From: Nitzschia sp. pyKryTriq1
Taxonomy: Eukaryota > Bacillariophyta > Bacillariophyceae > Bacillariales > Bacillariaceae
Direction of reading: 5' to 3'
Length of the DNA stretch: 64,000 nt
NCBI GenBank assembly: GCA_956465555.1
Contig: OY101130.1
Span: forward strand, 372,001-436,000
The notes under the pieces are model-generated. The model made no database searches. It had not been told where the DNA came from and saw only the letters and a list, made by a program, of their open reading frames with translations. This document shows, piece after piece, positions 20,376-56,470 of the stretch. A program made the translations under genes and the position numbers. The stretch's first letter is position 1. Every line of letters starts with the position of its first letter.

Positions 20376-21815
20376 CTAGAGTTCGCCACTGTCATACGTG
20401 GGATCATGCCGAACCCCATCACTATCATCTACGTCTTCAATGTACCATTCATCTTCCTCCCACAACCATACCTGATCCGAGAACTGTCCCTCCGATTGTT
20501 CAATTGCGTTCTCAAATGCTGTGACTATGGCGGAGCGAAAGCTCATGATGGCTTGAAGTTCCACTTCGGGAATGTCCGTACGAGATTTGTGGTCCATTTC
20601 AAATGCTTCGAGACGTTCGAGTTGAATTGCCAGAAACGCAATACCTCCACGACTCGGTGGGACAATAAAAGTAACTTCCAAATCACTACCTTCTTCTTCG
20701 TCTCCTTCATTTTCTTCGGCTTCCGATGATTCGTCAATATTGAATAATATTCGTGCATATGGAACGACCCATCGTTGAGGATACAGCTCGACAAACCCAT
20801 ACCATTCAAATATTTGGGGCGTCACAAAATATTTGTTCGGTCCAGCGGGTGGACTCGAATAGTCCTCATGACACCAATCGCATTGATTGTACGAACTCTG
20901 CAATTGCTCTCCTGCTTGAATATCTCGTGTCGCGACAATCATATAGCAGTCGTCCGTTTTGAATACTGGCTTGACGTTCGTATAGTATCCGTTCTAGATA
21001 AAAGTAATCGATTGATGATTCGAGACAGAACGACGAATGAACGTGTGTGAGAGAACAATATTACCCTCCATGTTTGTTTAGCAACCAAAAATTCCACTTC
21101 GTCTCGCAAAGCAGATATCAGTCATGATGCTATGCCATTAGAATGCAACAACAATACGTACTCGATGATTGAGAAGATCATTGATGGGAATTAAATCAAT
21201 GCCCTTAGGACCTTCCCCTCGTGTTTTTAAAAGCATCATGGCTTGAAGATGACCGTCATTGAGTGGAACCCCACCACATTCCTCCGCATCCCATTTGATA
21301 TCCAATCCTTTATATATTCCAAACATGCCGCCGTGAATGAGTTCTTTCCATAATGATTTGCCCTTTTCGGACCAACATAATGGAGCACTCGCTAGCGATC
21401 GTTTCGATAGATATCGTTCGTACGGTGTTTGTAATTCCGGAGCTTTCGTGACGACAGTATTTCGTACTGTTTCGACTATTTCACACCAGCTTGCATTCTC
21501 GCCACTGGGTGGTCGGATAAGTAAATGCCATGGAATCGATGTGATGATTTCATTCTTGGGAATCGGTTCGTTGGCAAACAATCCATGTAAAGATCCTTGA
21601 ATTTGTCGAATGTCGATTTTGTGACTGATAGAACCTCCATTGGCGACCGTCCATTCCTTGACTTGCTGTAACAGAACCATATCATCATCTTGGGCTTCGG
21701 CTTCGGCATCACCAACATCAATATCCGCCGATGATATTGCTAGAACGGAATTCCAGAAAAAAATGAGGATGCTGAGGGAGAGAAGTACCACGAGATCCAA
21801 AGTCGGGAGCCGCAT
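20376..21815 (-). CDS. Secretory SET-domain protein (RLSMT/SETD-like), cluster member 1
   Basis: Two exons, 21815-21162 and 20993-20376, with a 168-nt phase-0 intron (GTACGT...ATCTAG); 423 residues. The N-terminus is hydrophobic (VVLLSLSILIFFWNSVLA), a signal peptide or anchor. A SET domain of the Rubisco-LSMT/SETD6 type spans about 65-290: SLHGLFANEPIPKNEIITSIPW, then DLLNHRNG with N216-H217, TRDIQAGEQL and SSYNQC with the catalytic-position Tyr253. After it comes EWYGFVELYPQRW, the same post-SET block seen in the two giant fusion proteins at 24-34 kb, then an acidic tail. These domains transfer methyl groups from AdoMet to lysines or amines. The shared post-SET block and signal peptide suggest it works in the same secretory pathway. 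The intron splits directly after N-H-R. Confidence 0.88.
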
Positions 21816-23022
21816 ATTTTAATAGCAATGGTTATCGGAAGAAGAATGAGGAGACGAATGGATGGATGAAACGTTTCGAGAGACGGAAAATATGCTGGTA
21901 CCGGTAGTTAATATTTATTTTTGTCGGCAAGAGACGCGACTCGCGACTCCGCAACAAGATTCAACGCAAATCTCGGCCAAGAAGCGTGAGGGGTACGAGG
22001 TCCCGGGCGGGTCCACCGTAATTCTCGTGTTTGAATACCCCCCCCCTATGTTGGTCTGAACGTCTCAAATGACGAGAATGATGCTCGCGACAACACCATC
22101 CAGGCTTGCACGACACCTGCATCTGTCACCACCATTGTTGCAATGACAAATGTACTTGCCTCGCGCTCAAAACTTTCAGGAGGCTGTTCTTTCGCCAAAA
22201 ACTTGCCAAAAACTCCCGCCAATCGGTAACCTTTCGGTGATATTCTCCAAAAAAGTTAACGAATTCGGTAATACTGTATGTACGTGTTTCACGTGGGTCG
22301 TCGTCACGAAGGATCGCATCTGTTGAAGAGGGACTTCGATCGGAGGAGTCCACCACCGAAAGAAGGACAGACGCTAGTGATTCGATCAAGGACGATTCGT
22401 TTGCAGGCTAACGTCGATGACTTTCATGGATCTTGGATCATGCAATGTCTATTGCGATCATTGAGGGACGAAGCTACAGATTGATCGTGAAGTTGATCTT
22501 GGAATCGAGATTGCGATCTTGAAAGAGAGAATGGATAGAGTAGAGTAAGCAATCTATTAGCTCACAATTCGAAATTGAGATATACAGACGTGTATTATCT
22601 TGAGTTGTGCCGCTGGAATTTTGATCACTCTCGTGTAGAACAGTTCTTGACTTCGTAGATTCAATTCTACAGTAAAGTCTGTCAGTCGTACGTACAAGTA
22701 TTTCGATTACTTTAACACGCATCATCATCATCATCCAATGATTTTACCAGATCAACCCCTGATAGAAATTCGATCAAAATGATAATAAAAGTTAAGATTA
22801 GTCGCTTAGGGGTAATGGGAGCGAGCGATGATGATTATGATACAGTACTGTAGATATTCTTCATCATACGAGAGCAGGTTCCCAGAATCATCGCATCTTT
22901 AACGTTTGAGCACCAATTCGTACTTTTAAAATAATGCTGCTGATAGGCGATGTTGGTAATTCTGTTTGTAGAAGAAGCTAATTCTTGAGACTGCTGCTTC
23001 TATATTCTAAGCGACGCAAAGC
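21816..23022. other. Divergent intergenic region, no gene seen
   Basis: A 1.2-kb spacer between SET member 1 (minus) and the UBL-like membrane protein (plus). It includes TACCGGTA at 21899-21906 and a short CAT run near 22720. Several short frames exist but show no protein-like features. Confidence 0.4.
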
Positions 23023-23970
23023 ATGAAGGCCCCGCACCATCAGCACGGCAGCGGCAAGTCTGCTTCGTCATCGAAAGTAACAAGCGGTGAAGACGACGAT
23101 CTTAGCGACTGGTTGGAGGCTTCGGACTGGGATAATCCACTCCATGTGGCAATTCTGTATAAAGATCATCGGAGGGTTGAATGTGGACATGCTGTGCAGT
23201 GGAATGCGCAGCGGTTGGTGGATTCCAAGCACTGTCCTGTGTGCCAGGGGAGCATATCTTTTATTTGCGACGGCGGAGGACGCGATGTTGGTCCGAGGAC
23301 AGCGGAGGATCCGCATGTATGCTTTAAATTTGGGAAACAAACCTATTCCTTATCACTGAAGAATGAGCCATCCTCCTCCTCTTATTCGACGGACTGGCTG
23401 TCGTCCTTTCTCAACAAGTGGTCGATCCGTTCCGCTAGTACAACAACAAATTCTTCGTCTACTAGTGGCGTGGTTCTCGCTCAAGATCGAATCCAAACCG
23501 CATTAAAGCTGGCGGATGGGTTCAAGATTCTACACAAGGGCAAAGTTCTATACCCATCAACACCATCAACAGCAACAGCTCCTCCGGGTAGCCACAAATC
23601 GCCTCGAGAAGTATCCGATCTGCTCGTGGAGCTTTCTGCTTCAGCTCAACAACAGCAACAGTCGTCGTCGTCTCCTTCCTTCTTGGTCGTCATGGGAACG
23701 TTACACGGTCGAGAATTACCGGCACGACCTGTAGAAAAGAAGGCCTACTCTCAGCAATGGACATGGCAGCAACTTTTACAGTTGCCCTTGGCGATTGTTT
23801 ATTGGACTATTCATTCGACATGGGTATTTGCCAAGGCATTTCTGTCTCCCTTTTTTTCATGGGCGTCTCTAGCGGGGGATGACGATACGAATCATCATCA
23901 TCATCATCGAGAAGGATCACACCCATCACATCCAGAGGATGATGATAATGATCATCGACATAGGGACTAG
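23023..23970 (+). CDS. Predicted membrane protein with RING-remnant and ubiquitin-like segments
   Basis: A 315-residue protein of unrecognised family. Residues 51-75 contain VECGHAVQWNAQRL...KHCPVCQG: C54-x-H56 and H70-C71-x2-C74 resemble the second half of a RING/U-box finger. From about residue 98 to 225 the pattern (FKFGKQTYSLSL ... RIQTALKLADGFKILHKGKVLYP ... SDLLVELSAS ... FLVVMGT) looks like a ubiquitin-like beta-grasp interrupted by Ser/Thr-rich insertions. Residues 246-281 are hydrophobic and aromatic, one or two membrane segments. The C-terminus is a His/Asp-rich tail that may bind metal. It lies inside the SET/polyamine cluster, convergent with the fusion gene downstream (102 bp between stops). 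A role in ubiquitin signalling at a membrane is inference only. Confidence 0.65.
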   Translation: MKAPHHQHGSGKSASSSKVTSGEDDDLSDWLEASDWDNPLHVAILYKDHRRVECGHAVQWNAQRLVDSKHCPVCQGSISFICDGGGRDVGPRTAEDPHVCFKFGKQTYSLSLKNEPSSSSYSTDWLSSFLNKWSIRSASTTTNSSSTSGVVLAQDRIQTALKLADGFKILHKGKVLYPSTPSTATAPPGSHKSPREVSDLLVELSASAQQQQQSSSSPSFLVVMGTLHGRELPARPVEKKAYSQQWTWQQLLQLPLAIVYWTIHSTWVFAKAFLSPFFSWASLAGDDDTNHHHHHREGSHPSHPEDDDNDHRHRD

Positions 23971-24071
23971 ACGGGAATCATTATTTGAGTGAATTAGAGG
24001 CTGCTATGTAGCTGGATATTTGCTATCCTACAGGAGCTATTTGCATTATCCTTGAGTGCGGTAACTCCTCA

Positions 24072-27000
24072 TCATTCGTCGTAGTCGTCTTCGTCCTCGT
24101 CACCATGGTGCTGTGCAAGCAATTGGGCTTTGGACGGAGACTCGGAGAGTCGTCGGAAAAAGTCTTCCAGTTCGGCGGGTGTTCGAAGATCACTTGCTGG
24201 ATTGATCGTTCGACCAGTCCCCCGAGGCATTGCATCTTGAAGCGTCACTTGGAGTTTGGCGCGCGCCTGCATTAGAAAGGAACGGGAGAACTCGGTGGTA
24301 AGGCTGTCGGTATCGGTACCGATCCGGTAGTAGCTGACATCGACGTGGGTGCGGCCGTCCCATGCCAACAGTACACTTCCCAAGGACGGATTCAAACACG
24401 CCACCAAACAGCCGTCTCCCAATCCTTGATAGATACTTTGATGAGGGCAGTCGAACTGGACTTGTTTCAAAGCATTTTCAAGAGCAGATGCCAAGCCATC
24501 AACCGAGAATTTAAAGAGAGGCTTTCCCTCCCTTGGCTCTAACTGGAAGACCACATGATGCGCCAGAGGCTGTTGCTTGAAGTATTGATCCAGACCCGGT
24601 TGGTTATCATAGTCAGATTGAAGGAATTTCTTGGGTTCCCACGGTTCTAGCCATGGGTATTTTCCACCACGTATTGTTTGGAGGGAAATGTCAATGAGCT
24701 TTTCTCGAGGAGGAAAGCGTTTTCGAAGACTGCTTTCAACTTTTTGGAACGCATAGGGTGCCTTATCGTCAGCGCAAGAGACCACACCAAATTCGACCAA
24801 TTGAGTCCCGGATTGAATCCTAATTTCTCCTCGACTAATAGGATCGTTCAGGTAGTGGCGGCGGTAGTTTTCCAAAAAGTACTTTCGCCAGGATTCTTCC
24901 TTTGGAACACTCGACCAAGCTAAAAACACATTTGTGGGGGCAACAAGCGAGGTTCGGTACCTGGTTTGACTCAAGATGCTGTCTACAATCTGAAGCAGTG
25001 GCATGGTTGCCGTTTGATCCACCAAGAGCAATTGTGTTTTTCCCTTCTTTCCGAGCTGTGCCTTTTTCCATTTGGAGGCAACAGCAATTTCACATTCGTA
25101 CATGGTGCTACTATCGTCCACGTCCAAATCAGAGCAAGTAAAGAGTCGAATGACGTTGCTCACTGTTTCTGACTTCTCCAATAAATCCGCGGCCAAACAC
25201 GTCTCGGCCTCCGTTCCACACAGCGCCACTGCTACATTGTCTTTGGTCTTGACAACATGTACCAGGCTTTCTTCAACAGCGGCCACAATGAGCTCGTTCG
25301 CAGAAGGCAACGCAACCCCACTCGGAGGGTCGTCCGAAAATGACTTTTCCTCGCAGTCTCGCGCCTGAACAATTTGAGGACCGATCAAGTTGCGATCCTC
25401 GTTCCAAGTGGAAGATCCAAACATGCCACCAACGACCACTCGAAAGTTGGAAACCAGTGGGCTTTGCATCGCTTCTGTCAATGAGGTTCTCAACGAATGA
25501 AGTTTGCCAAAGCGACCCCACAACTTGATTTCCATACTGCAGTACTTTTTCGAGGGCCATAATCGGGCCATAATGTATCCCTCCTTCATGACCAGCAAGA
25601 TCATGCTGTCCGATACCAAGACGGGAGATGTCGCCAACTCAAATCCTTGCTTGGCAATTGTATCTTCTAGGACCTGGACCAACGTCTCATCGAGTGGAAT
25701 TGGGATTTGTTCGACATCCACAATTTCCATGATTCCGGCGCTCTTGGATTGTTCTTCCGCCGGAATGGCACATTCGGGAGGAGCGTCACATTTTCCTTGC
25801 GCCCGTGCATCATTGGTTCGATAGTCGTGCAAGAAATTCAACCGATTGTCGGGGGAAACTAACGGTTCGTAGAGTAAGGTAGGAATTCCGTGGTCCTTGA
25901 CGGGAGAATGTAGAAAATCGACCTTGTTGCTTCCCATGGTCAAGACTTGATCACAAATTATGGGACATTCATAGACGATATGCATCGAGTGGTCAAAGAC
26001 TTGGCTGACGGGCTCCAGATACTGTTCATTTTTGACCAAGACACCTTCTGGTTTGAGAAGAAGCGCCAGAGCATCAAAGACATCCAGTTCAGCAGTAACT
26101 GACAAGGACATGACCGTCTCGGACAAATCCACCAAGACCAAATCAAAGCTTTGCCAGTAGTCCTTGGACAAGAGAAGTAAACTCTTGGTAGCATCCCCAA
26201 ACCACCATTCCACCCGCGGATCATCAAAATGAGGTTGAGTGTGAAAGTACTTGAAGGACTTGCGTGTGACCAGTTGATCGAGTTCCAAACCCACGACGAG
26301 TTCCAATTCGGGATACTTGAGCACTTCATGCAAGAGCATGGAATCACCTCCTCCGATGAAAATGACACGCTTGACGGAGTCTAAATAGCGTGCCGCAGCA
26401 TGGACCGAATACTCGTGATACTGAGGACGGTAGATACTTGCAATTTGAACAATGTGGTCCAGCTCCAGAACGACATCCTTCGATTTGGGTTCAATAGTGA
26501 ATTGCATTTGTTGGTAGGGGGTGGGGACGAATTCCACTTCTCGATGGTGTGGAAAATCCATGGCTTCATCATTGTCACATGTCTCGTCTCTATAATCCAA
26601 ATCATCGTATTCCCATTCGAGAGGATGGTAGTGGGGTGCATCGACTAGAAGTTCGGATGCCTCCCATTCTAACAACGAGTGGTTAGACGCTGCGGATAAT
26701 GACGTGGCTACACCAGGAGCCGACGCTTCTAGTGCCTTGATGGCCATGGTCATGGCACGAACATTCGCTTGTTGAAATTCCCATGCTGTCTCCCATTCCG
26801 CTGGAGGAATGGCCGATTTTCCCGGAGGATTTCCCTTTCGATATTCAATGTTACGTAGTTTCCTCAACCTTCGAATTTGTCGCTTCAGCCACACAATCAT
26901 ATCCCCATGTTCCTCTGGCTTGTCCGGTGTCCATTCAATCTCCCATGTCAATCCAAAACGTCCTGTCGTTTCATTCCGATCGACTTCGAATTGAATTTCC

Positions 27001-28220
27001 AGTTCTCGATAATGCCAGCGTTGTGGGTATGGCTCGATAAATCCATAGTCTCGTAACATTTCTGAATGCATACCCAACCAATAAAAATGAAGGCACAAAA
27101 CAGGTACGAACATACATAATATCATAGTGAGCAACGATGCGGATGGATGGATCGCAACACGCAGCACTCATTCCAGCCGCACACCGCACACTATACTAAA
27201 AACGCATTCGCCAGCAGTACCGCAGTATTACTCACCTGCTGTCCCATACGCCTGAGCTCGACTTTCACATTCCGCACACAAGTTTTGACTGATATAAATC
27301 GTTTCTCCCACCGCAATATCTCTCGTAGCTTTCACCGTCACTTGACGCGAGTGCTCCTCCGTCGTCACATCGGCATTGGTCCATCGTAGTGCACCGTTGC
27401 GGTGCGCGTACATTCCCGATACGACCGGCACCAAGATTCCATCTTCGGCCCACTGGACGACCAACAAGGCCGCCATACTATCTTTGGGGTCGCCTTGACA
27501 AATTTCCAACCAATCCAAGGCAATCCATTCGGTAGGTTCAATGGGTGGAATCATGGCATTGTGATCAAACCGTCGTCGTTTTTTGTTCCTGTTCTTCTTT
27601 GGCGGTCCCGGTGATGCGATTCCCACAATTTGTTGCAGTAGATGTTGCCCTTGGGGACTCCAGGCACTCGGTAAATGATTCATGGGAGGTCGCTCGATAG
27701 CATCTTGTAAATACTGTACGAAGGGAGCGTAGGAAGAAGCCTCCGCGCCCAGCTCCAACTCGTGAGCCAATGCTTGGACCATGGCACAAGGCATCGGACC
27801 ATTGGGATTATTGGGAGCACCGCTACTAGTGCTGCTATCACTGTTACTGGCAGTGATGATGAGCGACCAGGGAACGCGCAGCAATGTTTCTCCCTTGGCA
27901 ATAGGTTGGGTGGCCACCATACCGTAGGTAGCACTGCTGCTGTCGCCGCGGTTTCGGTCGCCGTCATTCTTTTCGTTGTTGTCGAGCATAAGTAATAATC
28001 GATATTCCTGCGACGGATTCACATAGCCTCCTTCTTCTCTTTGGATCCACTCGAATATCCCAAAATCATTCGTGGCCGCCTTATCATTGACCGTGGATGA
28101 CGTTGTCGTCGTTGTCGGCTTCGTCGTCTCATCGGATGAAGCAGCATAGCAATAATAACTGGATGGAGAAACCAGCTGCAGCACCAGCAACTGCAGTACG
28201 AAACCACAAGAGCAGATCAT
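24072..28220 (-). CDS. SET-aminopropyltransferase-AdoMetDC fusion A (LCPA-type), catalytic sites altered
   Basis: Two exons, 28220-27236 and 27061-24072 (174-nt intron, GTGAGT...TTCAG, phase 1); 1324 residues. Signal peptide (MICSCGFVLQLLVLQLVS), SET domain about 60-330, post-SET block (RDYGFIEPYPQRW), helical linker, aminopropyltransferase-like Rossmann domain about 520-710 (G565-G-G-D-S, then FDLVLVDLSE), and a bacterial-type AdoMetDC (SpeD) domain about 765-900. Further C-terminal domains end in an acidic tail. Key residues are lost: SET has A272-H instead of N-H and Q312 where catalytic Tyr is expected. The pyruvoyl Ser, catalytic His and Cys of SpeD align to G823, R828 and W843. In the APT, the D-S-S-D-P motif is D-L-S-E-T. 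Such diatom fusions are proposed to methylate or transfer long-chain polyamines in silica formation. The start is the ATG of the signal peptide; the frame stays open further upstream. Confidence 0.9.
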
Positions 28221-29672
28221 TGCATAAAATAAAGAGATGAATACTCGTAATGATATGAGAGGGCGGGGTGCTGCGGACGCACGGAGGATAGCAATGCGAT
28301 GCTGCTGTATCTGTGGTGATGCAGAGATGATAATAGCATAATAGTCTCTACTTGAAGAGATTGGAAGTGGTGAGGACTCGAACGAGTCATCTGGTCCCAA
28401 AATGGTCATTTCTGCCATCCGTTGGAAATGACCAAAACAGAAGATCAACGAAAAGGAGCAGTGACGATGGCACACAAATCTTTCGACCATCGAGATCGAG
28501 ATATTACATTAGTTGAAAAGCTTGCTCTACGAGTAAGCCCATAGAAATTTTAAGTTAAGCTCTCCGCCCTTGCATCCAGCGCCTTCGAAAAATGGCCTCG
28601 TCCCCTACCAACCCTGGGAGGGATGACGGTTTTCATGTGCATCCCCCTCGAGAAATCCAAACTTCGCCAAGTAAGCCAATAGAAATTTTAAGGCCACCCA
28701 CCCACCCGGGCGATCTCTCAGGTCGCTTGGGTCAACCGCGCTCCGGTAACACAGAGCCACGGTCACGCCCAATCAATACTAACAACTTTCTTACACACTA
28801 CAACTGACACACCCTAGCGAAGGGCAGGCGTAAGGGGTTCGAGAACTAGAAACTCCAAAAGGGATTCGGAGCCTCGCGTCATCTCTACTATGTAGCTGAG
28901 ATGAGAAAGCGAGAGCGTTGTTGATTGTGCTTTGGCGGGTTTTGTGTGTTTTGTCGCGCAGAACATTACAATTCATTATGATGTTTTGCACGTGCCATTG
29001 TGTCGATGGAAACGACCAAACGACATCTGCGATTTTAATCACCATTCAAAATTTCAGAGCACATTTCGTGCGAACAGAATTTTTCGTCTGTCTGTCTGTC
29101 TGTACATACGGATAGCACCCAGCCAAATAAAAGAAGACAATATTCCATGGCGATCAGACGTCATTCGCACCCCCAGCGGTACTGGTACCGCTGTTACGTT
29201 GTTGGTGGTGTGATCGGTTGTATCCTTCCTTTCCATCATCGTCAGTCGGTAGTGGCAAAATTCAGCAATTGTAGAAATTGGTCGTAAAGGTCATATGAGT
29301 CGTGACAAGTCATGGTAGTCGGATTTTGTGGTCATATCAGTCGTCCAGATCCCCCACCCGAATTTTGAGTCCACTTGCGTGCGCTCGCCCGCCCAACCGC
29401 GCGCCGACGCGTCTCTGCCGCCGACGCGTGTCTATGCCACCGACACCCCAAAGAGCCAACGACCGCCATGGCATTGTTCTAATACTATCGTCCAGAATGC
29501 GAATGAATGAATGAATGAATGACGAAGGAGAATCACAATCCTCACCACCGACCATCAGCCTTCCAAGAATTGAAGTATAATATCAGTACTCCCACTCTTT
29601 ATTTTTGCAAAGAGGAGAGGACACGACACTCGAACTACCGGTACATCATCATTGCATCATTGCATCAACAGG
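28221..29672. other. Shared divergent upstream region of the two giant fusion genes
   Basis: A 1.45-kb head-to-head spacer that must hold both promoters. It contains a 14-bp palindrome at about 28371-28384 (GACTCGAACGAGTC), a pair of direct ~24-bp repeats around AAGCCCATAGAAATTTTAAG at about 28530 and 28673, an AATG run at about 29503-29521, and TACCGGTA at 29636-29643, 30 bp upstream of the fusion B start. An open frame at 28592-28807 (Pro/Arg-rich, 71 residues) was not called. It could be a degraded mobile-element piece. Confidence 0.45.
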
Positions 29673-30759
29673 ATGGGAAACAAGTCTCTGCTTTCGGTCC
29701 TCCTCTTGCTGATTTCACTACACGCACTTTTCGATGTGACCCACGGAAAGACGAAAGAGGATAAGAAAGGTTCTTCATCTTCTTTGGATCACGGAATTTT
29801 CGATTGGGTCCGCAGTGCGCCAGGTGGCATTTACAATCCGGCTCAAGAATTCCGCAAGGATGCAGTGACGGGCGTGACGGGAGTCTTTGCCAAGCAAGAC
29901 ATTCCCAAGGGTACCGTGTTGGTGTCCGTGCCGTGGAGTCATGTGATTCCCAGCGACGATCCGACCGAAGAGGGACAGCTGTGTTGTGGTCTGGTGGAGC
30001 GATTGAAACGAGAGTGGAAATTGGGCTCGAAGTCGCAGTTTGCTCCGTACATTGAATACTTGAAAACGACCACTCCGCACTCCTCCACAGCTCTTCCGTC
30101 CACGTGGAGTAAAGAAGGAAAAGCCTTGTTGCAAGCCATTCTAGGGGAAGATGTGCGCCCCGTCCCCACCCCGAGCACTCCTAGTAAAACTACCATGATA
30201 CCACCCGAAGGTGCCTTCAAGTGGTTGACGAATGAATGGTATCCCATGTGTGGGGGAAATGCCAAGGACAAGGCAGGGATTCAAGCAGCATTGGTGGTCA
30301 TTCAACGAAGTGATGACCATATTCTCATTCCAGGTGCGTACAAACAAACATAGCGTGTTTGTGATGTTGTCGTTGTCGTTGTCGTTGTCGTATTGACATT
30401 GTGTTTATTCTGTTGTGTTTTTTCACTACTCACCCTCATTATTATTCTTGCTTGTTGTGCCCATATTGTTTACGGTAGGATATGACATGTACAATCACCG
30501 GAATGGAAAACAATGGTTGAATACACGAACGACTGTGAACGAGGGAAAGAATCATATCACGGTCGCTACTCGGGATATCCGAGCAGGAGAACAAATTTTC
30601 ATTACCTACAACATGTGCCGAGGATGTGTCGGTCGACGACATGGATATGGTACTGGAGGTGCGTGCTGTGCCGTTCGCATATGTGCTATCGATTGGAGAA
30701 AGCTGAACCACAAGGCGCTCACTCTTTTTCGCTCTCACTGACTCGCCTTTTGCTCATGG

Positions 30760-30790
<31 letters not shown>

Positions 30791-33700
30791 AACAGAAATT
30801 TTGAGAGACTATGGATTTGTGGAAATGCTGCCCCAACGCTTTCATTACCAGACCGAAAATGATTTGGTAGTCCAATTTGATATTGACGAGGTGGAGCAGG
30901 ACGAAGACGGTACCAAACGTTTGGAATTGACTTGGGACGACGAGTTGGGTCCTCCTCCTATGCTAAAACACAGCCAAAGTATGATCTTGCCCCTTTTGGG
31001 ATTCTTTCGTCGGCAGATTCGACGGCTACGAAAAATCCGCAACCTGCAGTATCGATCCACCAAGCCGGGGAAAATACCGCAAAAGGAATGGGACATGTGT
31101 TGGGAATTCCAATTGGCCAATATTCGAGCCATGACATTGGCGATCCAGTCGTTGGAAAAGGAACTGGAATTGGAACTCACTGTGAATGTGACAGACGATC
31201 TTGGAACCCATCATCTACCCCACTATGATAGTCTGGGAGCGGAGCCCGACGACTTGTCCTACGCCGATGAAACCTGCGACAACGAATACGCGTTGGCTCA
31301 TGTGGGTCACAGGATTGTGGACTCGGACGAGACTCATTATCAAGAATTGACCTTTCAGATCCATCCGGAAACCAAAAATGTCGTGATGGAATTGGATTCC
31401 ATTACTCAAATCGCCAGTGTCTATCGTCCTCAATATCACGAGTATTCGGTCCATGCTGCCGCGCGCTATTTAGATTCCGTCAAGCGTGTCATTTTCATTG
31501 GAGGAGGAGATTCCATGCTCTTGCATGAAGTGCTCAAGTATCCCGAGTTGGAATTGGTGGTAGGATTGGAACTCGATCAAACAGTGACGCGAAAGTCCTT
31601 CAAGTACTTTCTAACTCAGCCTCATTTTGATGATCCTCGAGTCGAATGGTGGTTTGGAGACGCTACCAAGAGCTTACTTCTTTTGCCAAAGGACTACTGG
31701 CAGAGTTTTGACTTGGTCTTGGTGGATTTGTCCGAGACGGTCATGTCCTTTTCGGTGACAGACGAACTGGACGTCTTTGATGCTCTGGCATTACTTCTCA
31801 AACCCGAAGGTATCTTGGTCAAGAACGAACTCTACATGGAAGTCATCAGTCAAACGTTTGATCACAGTGTGCAAATTTGTTATCAAAGCCCTGTCATTTG
31901 CGACCAAGTCATGACCATGGGAAGTAACAAGGTGGACTTTATGCATTCTCCTGTCAAGGACCACGGAGTGGAAACCTTGCTCTACACGCCGCTCGTGACA
32001 AGCGAGAACCGATATGATTTTTTGCATGACTATCGCCAAAATGATGCTCGAGCTCAAGGCAAGTGCAATCTGGAGAAGACGCCTTCGTCGTCCGAGTTGA
32101 AAGAGCAAACCAAGAGCGCGGGTATCATGGAGATTGTAGACGCAGAAGAAATTTCCGTTCCTTTGGATGAGGGCTTGGTTGCAGTATTGGAACAAGCCGC
32201 TCAGCAAGAAGGCTTTCATTTGAGTGGCAAATCAGTGTACGACAAGAACATCCTCATGATTCTCATGGAGGAAGGCTACATCTTGGCACGGTTGTTTTCC
32301 GACAAAAAGTACTGCAGTATGGATATCAATGTATGGGGAAGCTTTCACAAACTCAAGTCACTGACCGCGTCCTTGACCAAAGCACTGGGTAGCAAAGTCG
32401 TTTCCAACTACCGTGTAGTCGTTGGAGGAATGTACGGCTCGTCCACTTGGAGCCAGGACCGTGATTTGATTGGACCTCAAATGGCACAAGCCCGAGATTG
32501 CTCTGAACGACAACCCAAGGGCGCCGACGCAAAAGACGTTACAGTCGAACAAGCTCTCGTCAAGGTCTCCCTTGAAACAAGCATTTCGACTCTGGTGAGT
32601 CGCTCCGATGCTCTCGCCGTGGTCATTTGTGGTAGCAAAGAAGACGACTGTCTGGCACAGGAGGTGTTTAGCAAGTCGACCAAGATTGCAACGATCGTCC
32701 AACTGGTAGCATGCCCCGAAATCACGTCCGCCGAACCTGAGACTCTCTACGACTGTGAAATTGCATTTCTTGCCGAGTGGAAGAAGGCCCTTGGCGGTCG
32801 CAGGGCAGATATCCTCGCTCTGGATGCCACTGTTCCGAAAGAAATGTTGCAGATTGTCAATAGTATTCTCCACGATGACGTCTTTCGAAAGGCTGTCATT
32901 TCTCCGACGAATCTCGTTCTGACATGGTCGGTCCAGCCCGCCCAAGAGCCCTGGCGGGAGCAGTTTTTGGATCGCTATCGCAAGCAACACAAGAAGGATC
33001 CTATCAGTCGAGCGGGATACAGGATCCTGTCTGGGAGCGTGGAAATGGAGTTGGGTGTTGTATCGGCTGGCGACGCCTCCGTCGCCTACCACTTGGACCA
33101 AGTGGAGACCAGTTTGCAGAAGCAGTTCCCCGACGCCACTATCGAGCTTCATATCATTCACGGCGGGAAGTATGCCTATTTGGACCCATGGGATCCCCAA
33201 GAATTCCTTCAGTCCGACTACGACGACGCACCCGCCCTGGCCCAATACTTTGGGCAACAGCCAATCGCCCAGCATTCGATTTACCAATTGGAACCGATCG
33301 AGGATGCTGAGTATGAATTTGATTCCGAAAGTTTGAACAAGTCGTTCCAAGAAGCTTTGAAACATGTAGAGTTTGAATGCCCGACCAAGTTTTCGGTCAA
33401 CAATGTTGGAAAGGGTTGCGTCGTGGTCTGTCTCAACCCCGAGTTTGGCTCGGTCGTTTTGACATGGGATGGTCGCCAACATGTTGACATTAGCTATTAT
33501 CTGTTGGATGATGATTTTACCGAGTTGCAGCGATTCATCATGTATTTCAGATACACTACCGAGTTTCAGCTGGATGTTGCGCTCCGCGACGACATGCCTC
33601 GGGGTATAGGACGTGTCGTGAATTTCAAAGACGACACGATGCTGAAAGAGGAGCGTGACGTCTTTTTTGCAAATCTGTTCCTGGATGAAGACGAACTAGC

Positions 33701-33815
33701 GGAAGAGATGTATTATGCGCGTGCTTTGGGTCCCACCCAGGAAGTGAAAGAAGGCTCTTGTTCGGTTCCTGGGGCCGACCAATCAACTTGCTGGCCTGAT
33801 CCACCACCATTGTAG
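29673..33815 (+). CDS. SET-aminopropyltransferase-AdoMetDC fusion B (LCPA-type), SET site intact
   Basis: Three exons: 29673-30333, 30479-30658 and 30796-33815 (introns 145 and 137 nt, both phase 1); 1286 residues. Signal peptide (MGNKSLLSVLLLLISLHALF). SET domain about 36-280, with N226-H227 and Y264 in place, so methyl transfer is plausible. Post-SET RDYGFVEMLPQRF, helical linker to about 470, aminopropyltransferase-like domain about 475-660 (G516-G-G-D-S; D591-L-S-E), then a SpeD-like domain about 715-860. In this last domain the catalytic Ser, His and Cys positions hold G774, R779 and W794, so it should not self-cleave or decarboxylate AdoMet. A conserved region of unknown fold follows, and a second SpeD-like segment near 1125-1200. 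Divergent paralogue of fusion A. Expected to enter the secretory path; a role in methylating or transferring silica-associated polyamines is inferred from published work on this family. Confidence 0.92.
30760..30792. repeat. (CT)n(CA)n microsatellite in intron 2 of fusion B
   Basis: A CT run of eight or more units passes into a CA run just upstream of the exon 3 acceptor (AAACAG). The pyrimidine part could serve as the polypyrimidine tract; length changes here might affect splicing. Confidence 0.85.
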
Positions 33816-34178
33816 TCGCCGATTGCAAAGAAATAGATAATGATGCATAGTTTTTTAAATACCATTTTCCAGAACTAGAATGTTAGCTATGAAGGGATTT
33901 ATTCTGCTCTCCTCTCCCGTTAGCTTCCGCTATCGGAACAGAAAGTATCTCAATGGGAGCAAGTTGGATGAGTCGTCATGGTCTCGAACGAATAGTTGCA
34001 TTCGTGCTCTATGAAGGAACTTTTGCTGCTCGTGCTTTGATAATTGTGCAAGCTTGATCATTCCTAGACAAACAACCGCCAGTTTAAAATGCTCGACTCG
34101 CTTTTTTTTGGGTACATCTTGGATCCGAAAAAGTTTTCGTTTCCTCTTCTTGTCTCCAAACAATACGACAGGCAGTCT
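33816..34178. other. Convergent 3' spacer
   Basis: About 0.36 kb between the stops of fusion B and SET member 4. A minus-strand frame continues through it from the direction of the SET gene but has no protein features. Nothing else seen. Confidence 0.4.
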
Positions 34179-35129
34179 TCATAGTTCGTCCTCCTCGTAA
34201 TAGTACTGATCGTGATCACCACCACCATAATAATAGTTGGTGTAGTAGTCGTCGTCGTTCTCCTCCTCCATCGTGGGTGGCCCGAGTCCCATGTCGGCCC
34301 ACCCAGGATCGTATGCGGAAAAGTCGTAGTCAATCGCCAACTCTTCACCTTTCGCGATGTCCCGAATCGCATAAAACCCCAGCTTGCACCCCGTGTTATG
34401 AAATCGTTTGCGCTCCGCATCATCATTGTCATTCTTTCCTAAATTCATATTCCATTGCTCGTCCGTGTCGGCATGATTGGTAAAGCTACCAGAATCCAAA
34501 TCCACACATGCTACCGCGTGGGTACCGCTAGGCGTGGTCCATCGTGTATAGGCCCAAATCAATACATCGCATGCCAATGCCGGAGGAAGGCGTTGTAAAA
34601 AGGAACGATACTGCTCGGCGGTGGTAAATTGAGCGGTATATTTCGACGTCCAAATTAACGTTCCCGCTGGAATGGCTTGCATCGCGTAGTTTCCTCGTCC
34701 TCGTTCTTCTGTTTTGAGGACTTGCACGGGGACTTGGAATCCTGAAGAGGGCGACGATGATTCCCCTTCATCCTCATCATCAACAGAAGGAGGCAATGAA
34801 GATTGATCTTCACCCACCGTCTCTCGATACGCTTGTCGTAAAAAACGCCACGTCAAAGCATTGTGGACAGGAAATGCTTCGGGATTGTGCTCAAAATCAT
34901 GATGGTCCTCTTCACAACCCAACCACCAATAAATGTCCATCGCTGCCCAAGAACTCCAAACCTCTTCGGGTGTATAGTACTCCCTGCCGGGGTGCTCTTC
35001 TTCTTCTTCTGCTGTGATATCCTCCTTGGCCTGGCAGTAACAAGAGGAGTCGGGCCCCAATGATACTAGCGGTAGGAGGAGCATCCACCACAGCAGAACG
35101 ACTACGTTGGCAAAGGACGACTTGAACAT
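34179..35129 (-). CDS. Secretory SET-domain protein, cluster member 4
   Basis: A 316-residue protein starting at the ATG of a clear signal peptide (FANVVVLLWWMLLLPLVSLG). After an acidic segment there is a conserved region (WAAMDIYWWLGCEED ... FPVHNALTWRFLRQAYRETVGED) shared with the gene at 35717. A SET domain follows at about 128-272: GRGNYAMQAIPAGTLIW, VDLDSGSFTNHADTDEQWNM with N218-H219, then CKLGFYAIRDIAKGEELAIDYDF with Tyr268. The catalytic-position residues are present, so it may be an active methyltransferase. The C-terminus is a short Tyr/Asp/Gly-rich tail (YYTNYYYGGGDHDQYYYEED). It is divergent from SET member 5. Its SET type differs from the RLSMT-like one in members 1-3. Possible substrates are secreted proteins such as silaffins, or polyamines; this is inferred from location and signal peptide. 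Confidence 0.87.
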   Translation of the reverse strand: MFKSSFANVVVLLWWMLLLPLVSLGPDSSCYCQAKEDITAEEEEEHPGREYYTPEEVWSSWAAMDIYWWLGCEEDHHDFEHNPEAFPVHNALTWRFLRQAYRETVGEDQSSLPPSVDDEDEGESSSPSSGFQVPVQVLKTEERGRGNYAMQAIPAGTLIWTSKYTAQFTTAEQYRSFLQRLPPALACDVLIWAYTRWTTPSGTHAVACVDLDSGSFTNHADTDEQWNMNLGKNDNDDAERKRFHNTGCKLGFYAIRDIAKGEELAIDYDFSAYDPGWADMGLGPPTMEEENDDDYYTNYYYGGGDHDQYYYEEDEL

Positions 35130-35716
35130 TTTACTATTTTCGACAAATGAATCACACACGACACGACACAAGAAGACTGACTGACTGACTGATAGTAGTG
35201 GAAACAGCAGAACAGACCCTCGGGTAGAGTATTAGAGTGAGTAGGGTACCAGTACAAGTAGGGTAGAGTTGAGAGTATCATCAGAGTAAATAAGCTTTTG
35301 GTCATTGCCCGTGGTCGTCATCTCGCGTTGGTCGTTATGGACGCGATGGGAATGCGAACTATGCATGCTGATGGCGGGAACGATCCAGTTCATTTATGGG
35401 CTGACGCGCTCGCCACATGCGCGCAGGTCCGATGTCAACCGAGACCATTAACCATAATAAATTCAAATAAAGCGCGCAGTCGCCTCAAAAAAGTCGGCTG
35501 ACTATGTGTTTGTTTTATGTGGCTCGGCGGGCGGAGCCGGCTGCGGTGGCCTAGGATCGACACAAAAAAATTGATTCGGGGGTTGTATGTTGTTGTTGTT
35601 GTTGTTGTTGTTCATTGTTCCTCTGGTTCCCATATTTCAACAACAACGCATCTCTACTCGTATAGTCTACTACAGTATCAACAAGCAACTACAATACAAA
35701 ATACAATCAATCAATC
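35130..35716. other. Divergent promoter region of SET members 4 and 5
   Basis: A 0.6-kb head-to-head spacer. A GTT trinucleotide run occupies 35589-35612. No other gene or RNA recognised. Confidence 0.45.
35589..35612. repeat. (GTT)n microsatellite
   Basis: Eight GTT/TGT units about 105 bp upstream of the SET member 5 start codon. Confidence 0.85.
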
Positions 35717-36616
35717 ATGACCATTACTATTACCAAAGCTGTCATGTCGCTCCCACCCAAATTCTGGTTGATTGGAACCGCCGCCTCGATCTTTTTCTTG
35801 GCTTTGTTCGGCCAAAACCACGTGACGAATGCGGTCGAGGCACCCGCGGCCCCTTCGACCATGACCGAAGAGGCCATGGAAGAAACACAAATTTGGTCCA
35901 AAGGCGCACTGGAACACATTTTTCGTTGGCTCGAGTGCCCGCAAGAAGAAAACAATAGTTTGGTAGTCCACAATGAGAGTGTGTGGAAGTTATTGAAAGA
36001 CACCTATCGAGACGTCGTCCACGAGGATATTCATTCGTTGCCACCGCCCTCTTCCAAGAGCGATTCTCTGAAAGGATACCAAGTGCCTGTGGAAATTAAA
36101 AAGACCAAATTAGAAGACGGTCAAGAAGAAACTTTGGGTGTCTTTACCAAGGCCGCCATTTCCAAGGGCACGCTGATTTGGAAATCCACCAACACGGCCC
36201 AATTCACGAGCGGTGCTGACTTTCGAACCTACCTCAAGGCCTTGCCCGAATATCTCGCCTGCGATATCATTGACTGGGCCTTTCCTCGATTTACGGCCGA
36301 TCAAGAGCCGCTCGTTTGTGTGGACTTGGATCATGGAAGTTTGACGAATGCCTGCGTCTTGGAGGAAGAATGCAACATGGAAGTCAAGGAGGAACTGCTG
36401 GAAAATTCGGGATGTGAAATGGAATTTTATGCGACTCGCAACATTGCCGCGGGAGAAGAGCTCAAATTAGATCACGACTTTACGGAAGCGGAACTGGCCT
36501 TTGTGCCCTTGGGCCTGAAGGCTCCTTTGAGAACTCATCTGGATGACTACGAAGGAGACGACGATGATGATGACGACGACGATGAGGATGAAGATGAGGA
36601 TGATCAAGAATTTTAA
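35717..36616 (+). CDS. Secretory SET-like protein with degenerate active site, cluster member 5
   Basis: A 299-residue paralogue of the gene at 34179, sharing the order signal/anchor, W-L-x-C motif, VHNESVWKLLKDTYRDVVHED, SET. The N-terminal hydrophobic segment is at about 15-33 (FWLIGTAASIFFLALFG). In the SET domain (about 120-256) the N-H motif is N211-A212 and the Tyr of D-Y-D-F is H253 (KLDHDF), so the two most characteristic catalytic positions are changed; methyltransferase activity is doubtful. The C-terminus is almost pure Asp/Glu (about 278-297), which could bind Ca2+ or polycations such as polyamines. It faces the next gene in the same direction. A regulatory or scaffold role beside active paralogues is a reasonable inference, not shown. 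Confidence 0.85.
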   Translation: MTITITKAVMSLPPKFWLIGTAASIFFLALFGQNHVTNAVEAPAAPSTMTEEAMEETQIWSKGALEHIFRWLECPQEENNSLVVHNESVWKLLKDTYRDVVHEDIHSLPPPSSKSDSLKGYQVPVEIKKTKLEDGQEETLGVFTKAAISKGTLIWKSTNTAQFTSGADFRTYLKALPEYLACDIIDWAFPRFTADQEPLVCVDLDHGSLTNACVLEEECNMEVKEELLENSGCEMEFYATRNIAAGEELKLDHDFTEAELAFVPLGLKAPLRTHLDDYEGDDDDDDDDDEDEDEDDQEF

Positions 36617-54449: not shown

Positions 54450-55733
54450 TTAGTCCAGAACAAAGGAGTGGCCAATAGCTTGCAACTTTGCCTTCAGCAG
54501 CTCGCGTTCATACGCTGTTCCTGTTGGCTTTAGATCCATCATCAGAACTTGACCTGTTCCAATATCCTCTGTCGCGATGAGTTCAAGTAGTACAGATACT
54601 CTCGGTTTGCTATTCTCGTCGCTTGCTTCTCCTTCGTGAACTTGGAGGTTGATCTTCAGTCGGCAATTACTTTTGACCGGAAGAAAAGGAGAGCTCATGT
54701 CCAGTCTTCGCACCGTGCCAATTCTTCCAGCAAAGGGAAAGATAGCTACGTTCTTTACATTTGTCATACGAAGAACTCTTTCCCCTTGCGGGTCGGGGCC
54801 TCTATATTCAATCGGAAGCTTTCCTCCGATGAGATCAGCTGCAGCCATTATTGAGTCTTGATGTTCTGGAAGCAAATCCTCCCATGTGATCACTAGAGGA
54901 CCGAGAGCAGTGTCTCTAACAAAGGGTTTGAAGAGAAGCATGGCGGGGGCTTGCTCTATTAGTTCACCCGCTTTGATCGGAAACTTCGCCCGGGCATCGA
55001 AGAGACCGGCCTCAAAAGGTGCGACGCGCGATTCATCGAGGGTTGGAAATAACCTCTGATGGGTTTGGGGGCCAGCGCCAGCGTAGATTTTGGTACAGTA
55101 CTGGGATCTCAAGAAATCGAGTCGCTCCGGTGAGTCAATAGTGATAGGCTCATCAGTATTCATCGTCAGATTCCGAGCTTCGAACCAAAGTTTGCCTCCA
55201 TCTTTGGAACCATAGTTGGAGAGGATTTCCTCACCAGCGCGAATGCTTTTTTTCGTGTAAAAACCATGAAGATAGCCACTGCGACTGACGGCGAGACGGA
55301 GGTTTGAAGCTGTTGGATGATGGTTGTAAATCATTTCATATCCAAACAAGATATTGCTCTCATACTTGTTCAGATGTTCGTAATTGACGCCGTATACGTA
55401 GTCATCCAGGGAGGTGGACTTTATCAAACGGTGTTCCTCCGGAAACAATTGGTCGTATGTCTTCATGTAAAAATGCACAGGCGTTATATCAACGAGTTCT
55501 CCTGGTCCAAAGTCACGGTTGGCGAAGACGCCCCAACCCGTGCTGGTGTTGGTCGGTGCCATGAAGACTTCACAGTTCTGCCAAGGCGCCATGGTTTCGT
55601 CCTCCGGAATTGAAGTCTTGGATTCGACACCGATTGCAGAACCAGTAGCGATTTTCATCTGGCCAGACGAAACGAGAAACAGAAGGATCGTCGACTTGGC
55701 GGCAAATGGCAGCAGCATCGTTTGGATTGCCAT
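54450..55733 (-). CDS. Secretory SET-domain protein
   Basis: A 427-residue protein starting at ATG 55733 with a hydrophobic N-terminus (about 6-30), a signal peptide or anchor. The SET domain at about 50-190 has STGWGVFANRDFGPGELVDITP, then MIYNHHPTASN (intact N-H), GFYTKKSIRAGEEILSNYGSKDGG with the catalytic-position Tyr, and a post-SET WFEARN. A second half (about 215-427) with LFDARAKFPIKAGELIEQAPAMLLF, VAIFPFAG and a C-terminal MMDLKPTGTAYERELL has a SET-N-like start but no clear motifs; it may be a second degenerate domain. It is convergent with ferritin (209 bp between stops). It is the sixth SET protein with a secretory-type N-terminus in the window, although 18 kb outside the cluster. 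Confidence 0.82.
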   Translation of the reverse strand: MAIQTMLLPFAAKSTILLFLVSSGQMKIATGSAIGVESKTSIPEDETMAPWQNCEVFMAPTNTSTGWGVFANRDFGPGELVDITPVHFYMKTYDQLFPEEHRLIKSTSLDDYVYGVNYEHLNKYESNILFGYEMIYNHHPTASNLRLAVSRSGYLHGFYTKKSIRAGEEILSNYGSKDGGKLWFEARNLTMNTDEPITIDSPERLDFLRSQYCTKIYAGAGPQTHQRLFPTLDESRVAPFEAGLFDARAKFPIKAGELIEQAPAMLLFKPFVRDTALGPLVITWEDLLPEHQDSIMAAADLIGGKLPIEYRGPDPQGERVLRMTNVKNVAIFPFAGRIGTVRRLDMSSPFLPVKSNCRLKINLQVHEGEASDENSKPRVSVLLELIATEDIGTGQVLMMDLKPTGTAYERELLKAKLQAIGHSFVLD

Positions 55734-56470
55734 GTCTTTGCTCAATTCAACAGGTTTTCTAGCGTTTCGACGTTGTGCTGATGGCTACTCTAATAGAGAG
55801 CAGGATCAATGAGAAATTTCCCAGTCTCTCTTTCTATTACTGTGCTAGTTGTACCGTAGAGTACGAAGTAGAAGTGAGGTTGTATTGGGACGACAACGAC
55901 TGACGACGACGACTCGTCCTCCTCGAGCTTTTTTAGCATGCTCATACTTCTTGACCATTTTTTGACTGTTGACACACATAATACGGTTTGAATGTAGCGA
56001 GGCACCAAATATGCCCTTGGCGAAGCGGTGTTCCTACAGCACGAATAAACCGTTTCCTGGGGGAAACCGTTTCGTGGGGCGTGGGGTCGGTGTTCGAAGA
56101 ACTCTCTACTCGTAACGGTCCGTGGCCTTCCGGAGGAGGGTCCCCGATAACCTGCGCCTGCGCTAGTGCCTCGTCGGGGCGCGGGGCCCACGTGGTCCGA
56201 TGTGGTCCGATGTGGTCCGATCAAACAGCCTTCTGTCCGTAACTATTCCAGGACCAAGACATGTCTCGTTTCATCTAAGATCTTCAGGAATGGTCATTTG
56301 TATGTCATTCTTGTGCCCGGTGCATTCGGTCCGGCGTGCAAGTATCCAAGGAGAGCCCTCACAAGAGTCAGACGGCAGTGGTCCGGGAACGGTTGACAAA
56401 CTCACAAAAACGGAATCAGTCACGTCTGTCCGTCGCGCACGTTTCTTCATTGGGGGCATATATATAATTT

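Follow-up and report, generated by a model that had tools for sequence, protein, structure and literature searches.

Five neighbouring SET genes of a probable secretory route, including two SET-aminopropyltransferase fusions, in the genome of Nitzschia sp. pyKryTriq1

A 64-kb stretch of the genome of the diatom Nitzschia sp. pyKryTriq1 (C16:372001-436000; hereafter, the window) was found to contain, at positions 20376-36616, five neighbouring genes with a SET domain: namely, a stand-alone SET protein (A), two giant fusions (F1 and F2) in which SET is joined to an aminopropyltransferase (APT) and to domains homologous to S-adenosylmethionine (AdoMet) decarboxylase (AdoMetDC), and two short stand-alone SET proteins (S1 and S2). 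In our joint reading, which we regard as about equally likely to be right or wrong, these genes of the secretory route would lie side by side through local duplication and chance instead of forming a conserved unit, F2 would be a luminal APT, and A and S1 would be SET methyltransferases of the early secretory pathway with silaffin-like substrates. A role of the cluster genes in silica formation is plausible. To our knowledge, no enzymes have yet been assigned to the methylation and polyamination of silaffin lysines. This question becomes testable with the few SET proteins named here, whose tails resemble retrieval signals of the endoplasmic reticulum (ER) and which lie next to two fusions, one with an intact and the other with a degenerate SET domain. 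The gene models are real, and SET was detected by Pfam in 5/5 of them; the cluster drawn in the original prediction thus stands in this respect, while the signal peptides or anchors proposed there correspond to hydrophobic N-termini in a simple hydropathy scan, present in all five proteins. The whole genome (40.65 Mb, 20 contigs) was searched, and the features of the locus are as follows (positions in the window).

20376..21815, minus strand: gene A, stand-alone SET protein of 423 residues; two exons, 21815-21162 and 20993-20376
23023..23970, plus strand: open reading frame of 315 residues without a Pfam match, unrelated to the cluster and interrupting the row between A and F1
24072..28220, minus strand: F1, SET-APT-pseudoAdoMetDC fusion of 1324 residues; exons 28220-27236 and 27061-24072
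28221..29672: space between F1 and F2, whose starts lie head to head
29673..33815, plus strand: F2, SET-APT-pseudoAdoMetDC fusion of 1286 residues; exons 29673-30333, 30479-30658 and 30796-33815
31383..31874, plus strand: APT core of F2 (residues 477-640), a likely gene conversion tract from its synonymous-site likeness to F1
32112..32426, plus strand: AdoMetDC-like module 1 of F2, dead, with Gly for Ser, Arg for His, and Trp for Cys
32517..33161, plus strand: Rossmann domain of F2, resembling by fold a second, degenerate APT
33258..33608, plus strand: AdoMetDC-like module 2 of F2, assigned by fold (5tvf; 4% in sequence comparison)
33753..33812, plus strand: Cys-Trp-Pro tail of F2, common to its orthologues P0001-P0004 and the S1 homologue P0089
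34179..35129, minus strand: S1, short stand-alone SET protein of 316 residues, ending in EDEL
35130..35716: space between S1 and S2, whose starts lie head to head
35717..36616, plus strand: S2, short SET paralogue of S1 with 299 residues, 37% identical to S1 and ending in DQEF

The genes F2 and S1 are convergent, with 363 bases between their ends.

The type of fusion seen in F1 and F2 is already known, and what we describe is informative variation within a known kind of gene set. Both proteins carry SET, APT and AdoMetDC-homologous domains in one chain, and a search with F2 gave 87 homologues covering up to 97% of the query, 82 of which had an APT match in Pfam; the named ones include Cylindrotheca, Nitzschia, and Pseudo-nitzschia, all pennate diatoms, with 41-44% identity. 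The domain content and these homologues bear out the assignment of the giants to the diatom SET-APT-AdoMetDC family, which was tied to long-chain polyamines (LCPAs) by Michael (2011) according to papers citing that work. As far as citing papers allow the comparison, the present genes share that chain and differ in that the dead state of AdoMetDC is counted and its replacements are fixed, the fold reveals a Rossmann domain plus a second AdoMetDC-like module, the SET domain of F1 has no catalytic Tyr, and stand-alone SET genes adjoin the fusions. Throughout the genome, PF01564 and PF02675 gave 21 and nine matches, respectively, and reading the loci individually revealed seven genes with SET first and APT next; in addition to F1 and F2, these are F3 and F4 (C13:128-138k, same strand), F5 (C13:452k), F6 (C13:465k), and F7 (C15:211k), and all seven have hydrophobic N-termini. 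Versions of the diatom fusions with a dead AdoMetDC and with Tudor domains are reportedly already contained in the abstract of Michael's FEBS Lett. paper of 2011.

F2 is most likely a luminal APT. The Asp residue of GGGD and further Glu and Asp cofactor sites are retained in F1-F5 and F7, with Ala at the GGGD Asp in F6; F1 keeps the APT core, but its SET domain is probably non-catalytic. As for the AdoMetDC module 1, in a table of 89 sequences each with at least 90 residues in the region, the pyruvoyl Ser is Gly in 89/89, the His is Arg in 82/89, and the Cys is Trp in 86/89. This pattern indicates that the AdoMetDC module of the fusions is dead, and conserved as dead; of the AdoMetDC originally proposed in the giants, the homologous domain is present but the active class 1B enzyme is not. 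The fixed Gly/Arg/Trp replacements caution against assuming that the fusions make their own decarboxylated AdoMet, which F2 would instead receive from other proteins; seven other loci couple an intact-looking AdoMetDC motif with an APT. In all, eight loci other than the SET-first genes have both an AdoMetDC and an APT match (six on C7, one on C3, and one on C6), the ESHxSFHTWP motif being intact in seven of the eight, and a hydrophobic stretch precedes the AdoMetDC domain in all three of the N-termini read (L014, L030, and L037).

C-terminal to module 1, a fold predicted from an alignment of 50 of the 87 F2 homologues contains a Rossmann domain like that of a second APT, followed by a second AdoMetDC-like module. 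The top Foldseek match of this half is human spermine synthase (3c6k), and the Trypanosoma brucei AdoMetDC/prozyme structure (5tvf) was aligned across residues 14-522 of the model. In the fold comparison of the Rossmann domain, class-I methyltransferases nearly tie with APTs; also, an assignment from sequence alone was rejected, as hhalign gave only 4.4% for module 2 as AdoMetDC and 0.5% for the linker as APT, and support comes from the fold. In the model, we describe the Rossmann domain as resembling a second, degenerate APT and module 2 as AdoMetDC-like. Human spermine synthase also joins an AdoMetDC-like domain to an APT, and the partner of the Trypanosoma prozyme is an active AdoMetDC in a separate protein. 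F2 departs from the human enzyme in its domain order, in having extra copies, and in carrying a SET domain and a putative secretory signal; the whole arrangement is not superposable (root-mean-square deviation, 14.7). The AdoMetDC-like and second APT-like modules of F2 may serve as non-catalytic parts for assembly or regulation.

The AdoMetDC-APT genes outside the SET-first family show some variation of their own. The copy at C6:1773943 (L037) reads KGHVSIHAWP, with Gly at the pyruvoyl-serine site, and C7:1447845-1456217 (L012-L014 and L033-L035) holds three tandem copies with a spacing of ~3.65 kb, identical APT scores, and an intact-looking AdoMetDC motif in 3/3. By eye, the C-terminal parts of L037 and L014 (C7) seem to run into a SET-like N-terminal motif (GRGVFAK and LGVLAKDD, respectively) that was not among the Pfam SET matches.

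Catalytic sites of SET were mapped by matching NHRNG...ITYN of F2 with NHTNG...IFYG of SETD3, a weak match (E 0.12) used only for this mapping; the resulting table had 103 rows, and 95 were counted after setting aside 8 with a gap at the site. So mapped, the SET domain is intact in F2 (NHRNG and ITYN, i.e., the SETD3-type NHxNG and the catalytic Tyr) and in A (NHRNG and SSYN), while F1 has Gln for the catalytic Tyr (ISQN) and Ala for the Asn of NH (AHRNG). The Tyr residue is found in 89/95, and the six proteins without it are F1, P0006, and P0067 (Gln), P0014 (Leu), P0053 (Cys), and P0057 (Phe). In the SET tree, F1, P0006, and P0014 form one clade (support, 0.996), and the loss of Tyr is therefore common to all of its three members. 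S1 retains both SET motifs (TNHADT and DYDF); in S2, NH is changed to NA and the catalytic Tyr to His (LDHDF), and S2 is probably a non-catalytic partner. In each head-to-head pair, one SET is thus intact and the other degenerate, which should not be over-read, given that the Asn of NH is variable elsewhere among the 95 SETs (Ser in 12, Ala in two, Thr in two [F3 and F4], and Arg in one) and in the S1 family too.

The post-SET block (YGF-x-E-x-x-PQRW), proposed to be shared between the fusions and the stand-alone paralogues, was confirmed in A (YGFVELYPQRW), F1, and F2 but is absent from S1 and S2. The block is family-wide and was therefore rejected as proof that the cluster genes are specifically linked. 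The possibility that A is a broken-off piece of either fusion was likewise ruled out: A belongs to its own clade with the stand-alone orthologues P0102-P0109 (support, 1.0), and the intron after NHR/K as well as the absence of the second intron are common to A and F7.

The SET domain of F2 would N-methylate the amine product of the APT or the lysine carrying that product. Methylation of free polyamines by the fusion SET domains, instead of protein-bound amines, would fit with the frequent N-methylation of LCPAs (PMC12029483) and with the bacterial SET enzyme BurB, which methylates free methionine (PMC12542666); we nonetheless consider it unlikely, and Tudor-like inserts, recognised by eye in F7 and called as Tudor domains by Pfam in the relative P0060, suggest binding of methylated protein residues.

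A and S1 are envisaged as soluble SET methyltransferases that an N-terminal signal and an EL tail would keep cycling through the early secretory pathway. Their substrates would be lysines of proteins bound for secretion (most plausibly silaffin-like proteins), methylated ahead of the silica deposition vesicle. The stand-alone SET proteins look secretory, as had been predicted, by their hydrophobic N-termini. In this genome, S1 ends in EDEL, A in SGEL, S2 in DQEF, the paralogue at C13:370k in KQEL, the protein at C5:2974k in RSEL, and F5 in KAEL; F1, F2, F3, F4, F6, and F7 have no xxEL ending. When P0088, which is S1 of the window itself, and every protein of the present genome were excluded, xxEL was found in 31 of the 42 stand-alone SET homologues (7/13 in the S1 family, 6/8 in the A clade, and 18/21 in other relatives) vs 9/87 of the F2-search matches, homologues that are not independent of each other; of these nine, seven fall among the 82 matches with an APT match and two among the five without. 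The composition predicts 0.7%, and the rate of EL in the 60 residues preceding the tail is 2.3%. DDEL is described as a working ER-retention signal in Phaeodactylum (PMC4593558, PMC3229587), and the tails of the small SET proteins and many of their relatives could keep them in the ER. A literature search on EL tails of diatom SET proteins in the context of silica, with subscription literature mostly outside its coverage, found nothing.

Such tails would place SET proteins in the ER generally, where they might act on other luminal proteins (e.g., chaperones and glycoproteins) without any role in silica. The nearest folds of S1 are protein-lysine methyltransferases, and the nearest annotated solved relatives of the fused SET include SETD3, an actin-histidine methyltransferase (E 0.12), both in favor of this possibility, which we rate as quite unlikely: the fused SET is joined to an APT, and for diatom-specific SET proteins, Nemoto (2020) proposed wall proteins or polyamines as targets, as cited in PMC11554505 and PMC11151724. 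Through these citing papers, the proteins of Nemoto resemble A, S1, and S2 as diatom SET proteins with such a proposed role.

Several points weigh against our joint reading. The N-termini were judged by hydropathy alone, and SGEL and DQEF are not classic KDEL forms. The xxEL ending is absent from 11 of the 42 stand-alone homologues and also from three stand-alone paralogues in this genome, namely that at C12:394k (TMDE, with an uncertain model) and the S1-like copies on C1 and C3 (FYKY). In the APT, the last Asp of the spermidine-synthase motif DSSDP is replaced with Glu in F1-F5, Lys in F6, and Thr in F7. Furthermore, neither a silaffin nor a silicon transporter was recognised in the window, where no search was aimed at them.

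More speculatively, diatoms might divide the chemistry of their silica-precipitating amines between two compartments: ER-retrieved stand-alone SETs (A, S1, and their relatives) would methylate lysines early and the export-competent SET-APT fusions would act later, with the conserved dead modules (AdoMetDC, the pseudo-APT, and the SET of F1) as prozyme-like activators or polyamine holders that assemble with intact AdoMetDC-APTs into a heteromeric chain elongator; we consider this arrangement distinctly improbable.

Merging SET matches within 3 kb left 76 loci genome-wide, and three of them lie within 16.5 kb here. At least three in any such span occurred in 3.3% of random placements, and the clustering is hence weakly unusual, at a P of about 0.03; for an unrelated SET lying within 5 kb of one or more of five fusion loci, the expected number is 0.085 (P about 0.08). 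These values would also suit an ordinary neighbourhood, in which duplicates of the known diatom fusion sit next to a pair of unrelated secretory SET genes without sharing a pathway with them, and we give this explanation a little less than an even chance. In its favor, searches that give lower bounds detected no stand-alone SET closer than 20 kb to the fusion loci at C13:128-138k, C13:452-469k, and C15:209-214k, and the unrelated open reading frame breaks the gene row. In Nitzschia sp. Nitz4, moreover, the F1-clade orthologue (scaffold164:28561-32565 of 50480) has >17 kb of flank on each side, yet the A orthologue is on a different scaffold (scaffold96:1661-2876), a comparison of gene order covering one genome and one link (A-F1). 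On the other hand, A is only 2.3 kb from F1, though few stand-alone relatives of A were detected in the genome (C5:2974992 and C12:394161). Searches of genome and viral contig collections gave no relatives with DNA context. The neighbourhood thus looks local rather than conserved, and the originally predicted neighbourhood devoted to methyl-polyamine chemistry is, as a conserved one, not borne out at these loci.

An item that speaks for an old link between S1 and F2, and against the ordinary neighbourhood, is the tail of P0089, an S1 homologue from elsewhere that is 62% identical to S1 over 84% of S1 and has the F2-type Cys-Trp-Pro tail in place of the EL ending. Its tail scored 148 against that of F2 (maximum of 500 shuffles, 49), as compared with 150 for the F2 orthologue P0002 and 123, 96, and 80 for P0001, P0003, and P0004, respectively. 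The conserved tail pattern of the F2-type fusions, GSCSxPGADQxxCWPxPPxL, has a single exact match in this genome and one further match with one mismatch, on C10. P0089 would be explained most easily if S1-type and F2-type genes were neighbours there too; it comes from one contig of 1377 bp, which could be a chimera.

Local exchange between F1 and F2 is also suggested by their codons. Among codons encoding the same residue (Met and Trp excluded), F1 and F2 use the same codon at 96/142 in the APT core vs 192/446 outside (Fisher P 4e-7), and the core value in the other 20 pairs among F1-F7 is 0.30-0.51. Across the core, F1 shares 90% identity with F2 and 85% with its own orthologue P0006, whereas the corresponding values are 42% and 56% in the SET domain and 45% and 57% in the C-terminal part. 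The APT core is hence a likely gene conversion tract, but the tree evidence is mixed: the core protein tree groups F1 with P0006 and P0014 (0.77) and F2 with P0001-P0004 (0.87), and any conversion would therefore be partial or old.

The two head-to-head intergenic spaces (F1/F2 and S1/S2) were compared for shared promoter words, and these were rejected: 36 9-mers are shared vs an expectation of 14.8, but 36 is also the highest count among 100 shuffles, and no 10- to 12-mers rise above the shuffle maxima. A further SET protein with a hydrophobic N-terminal stretch (Pfam match at C16:427209) is encoded on the minus strand at 54450-55745 of the window, 18 kb off the cluster. Elsewhere on the same contig, the SET protein at C16:822394 (L006), whose N-terminus is hydrophobic, is separated by ~2.2 kb from a stand-alone APT at C16:825015 (L010), and its paralogue on C14 (L007) is on a contig without an APT match.
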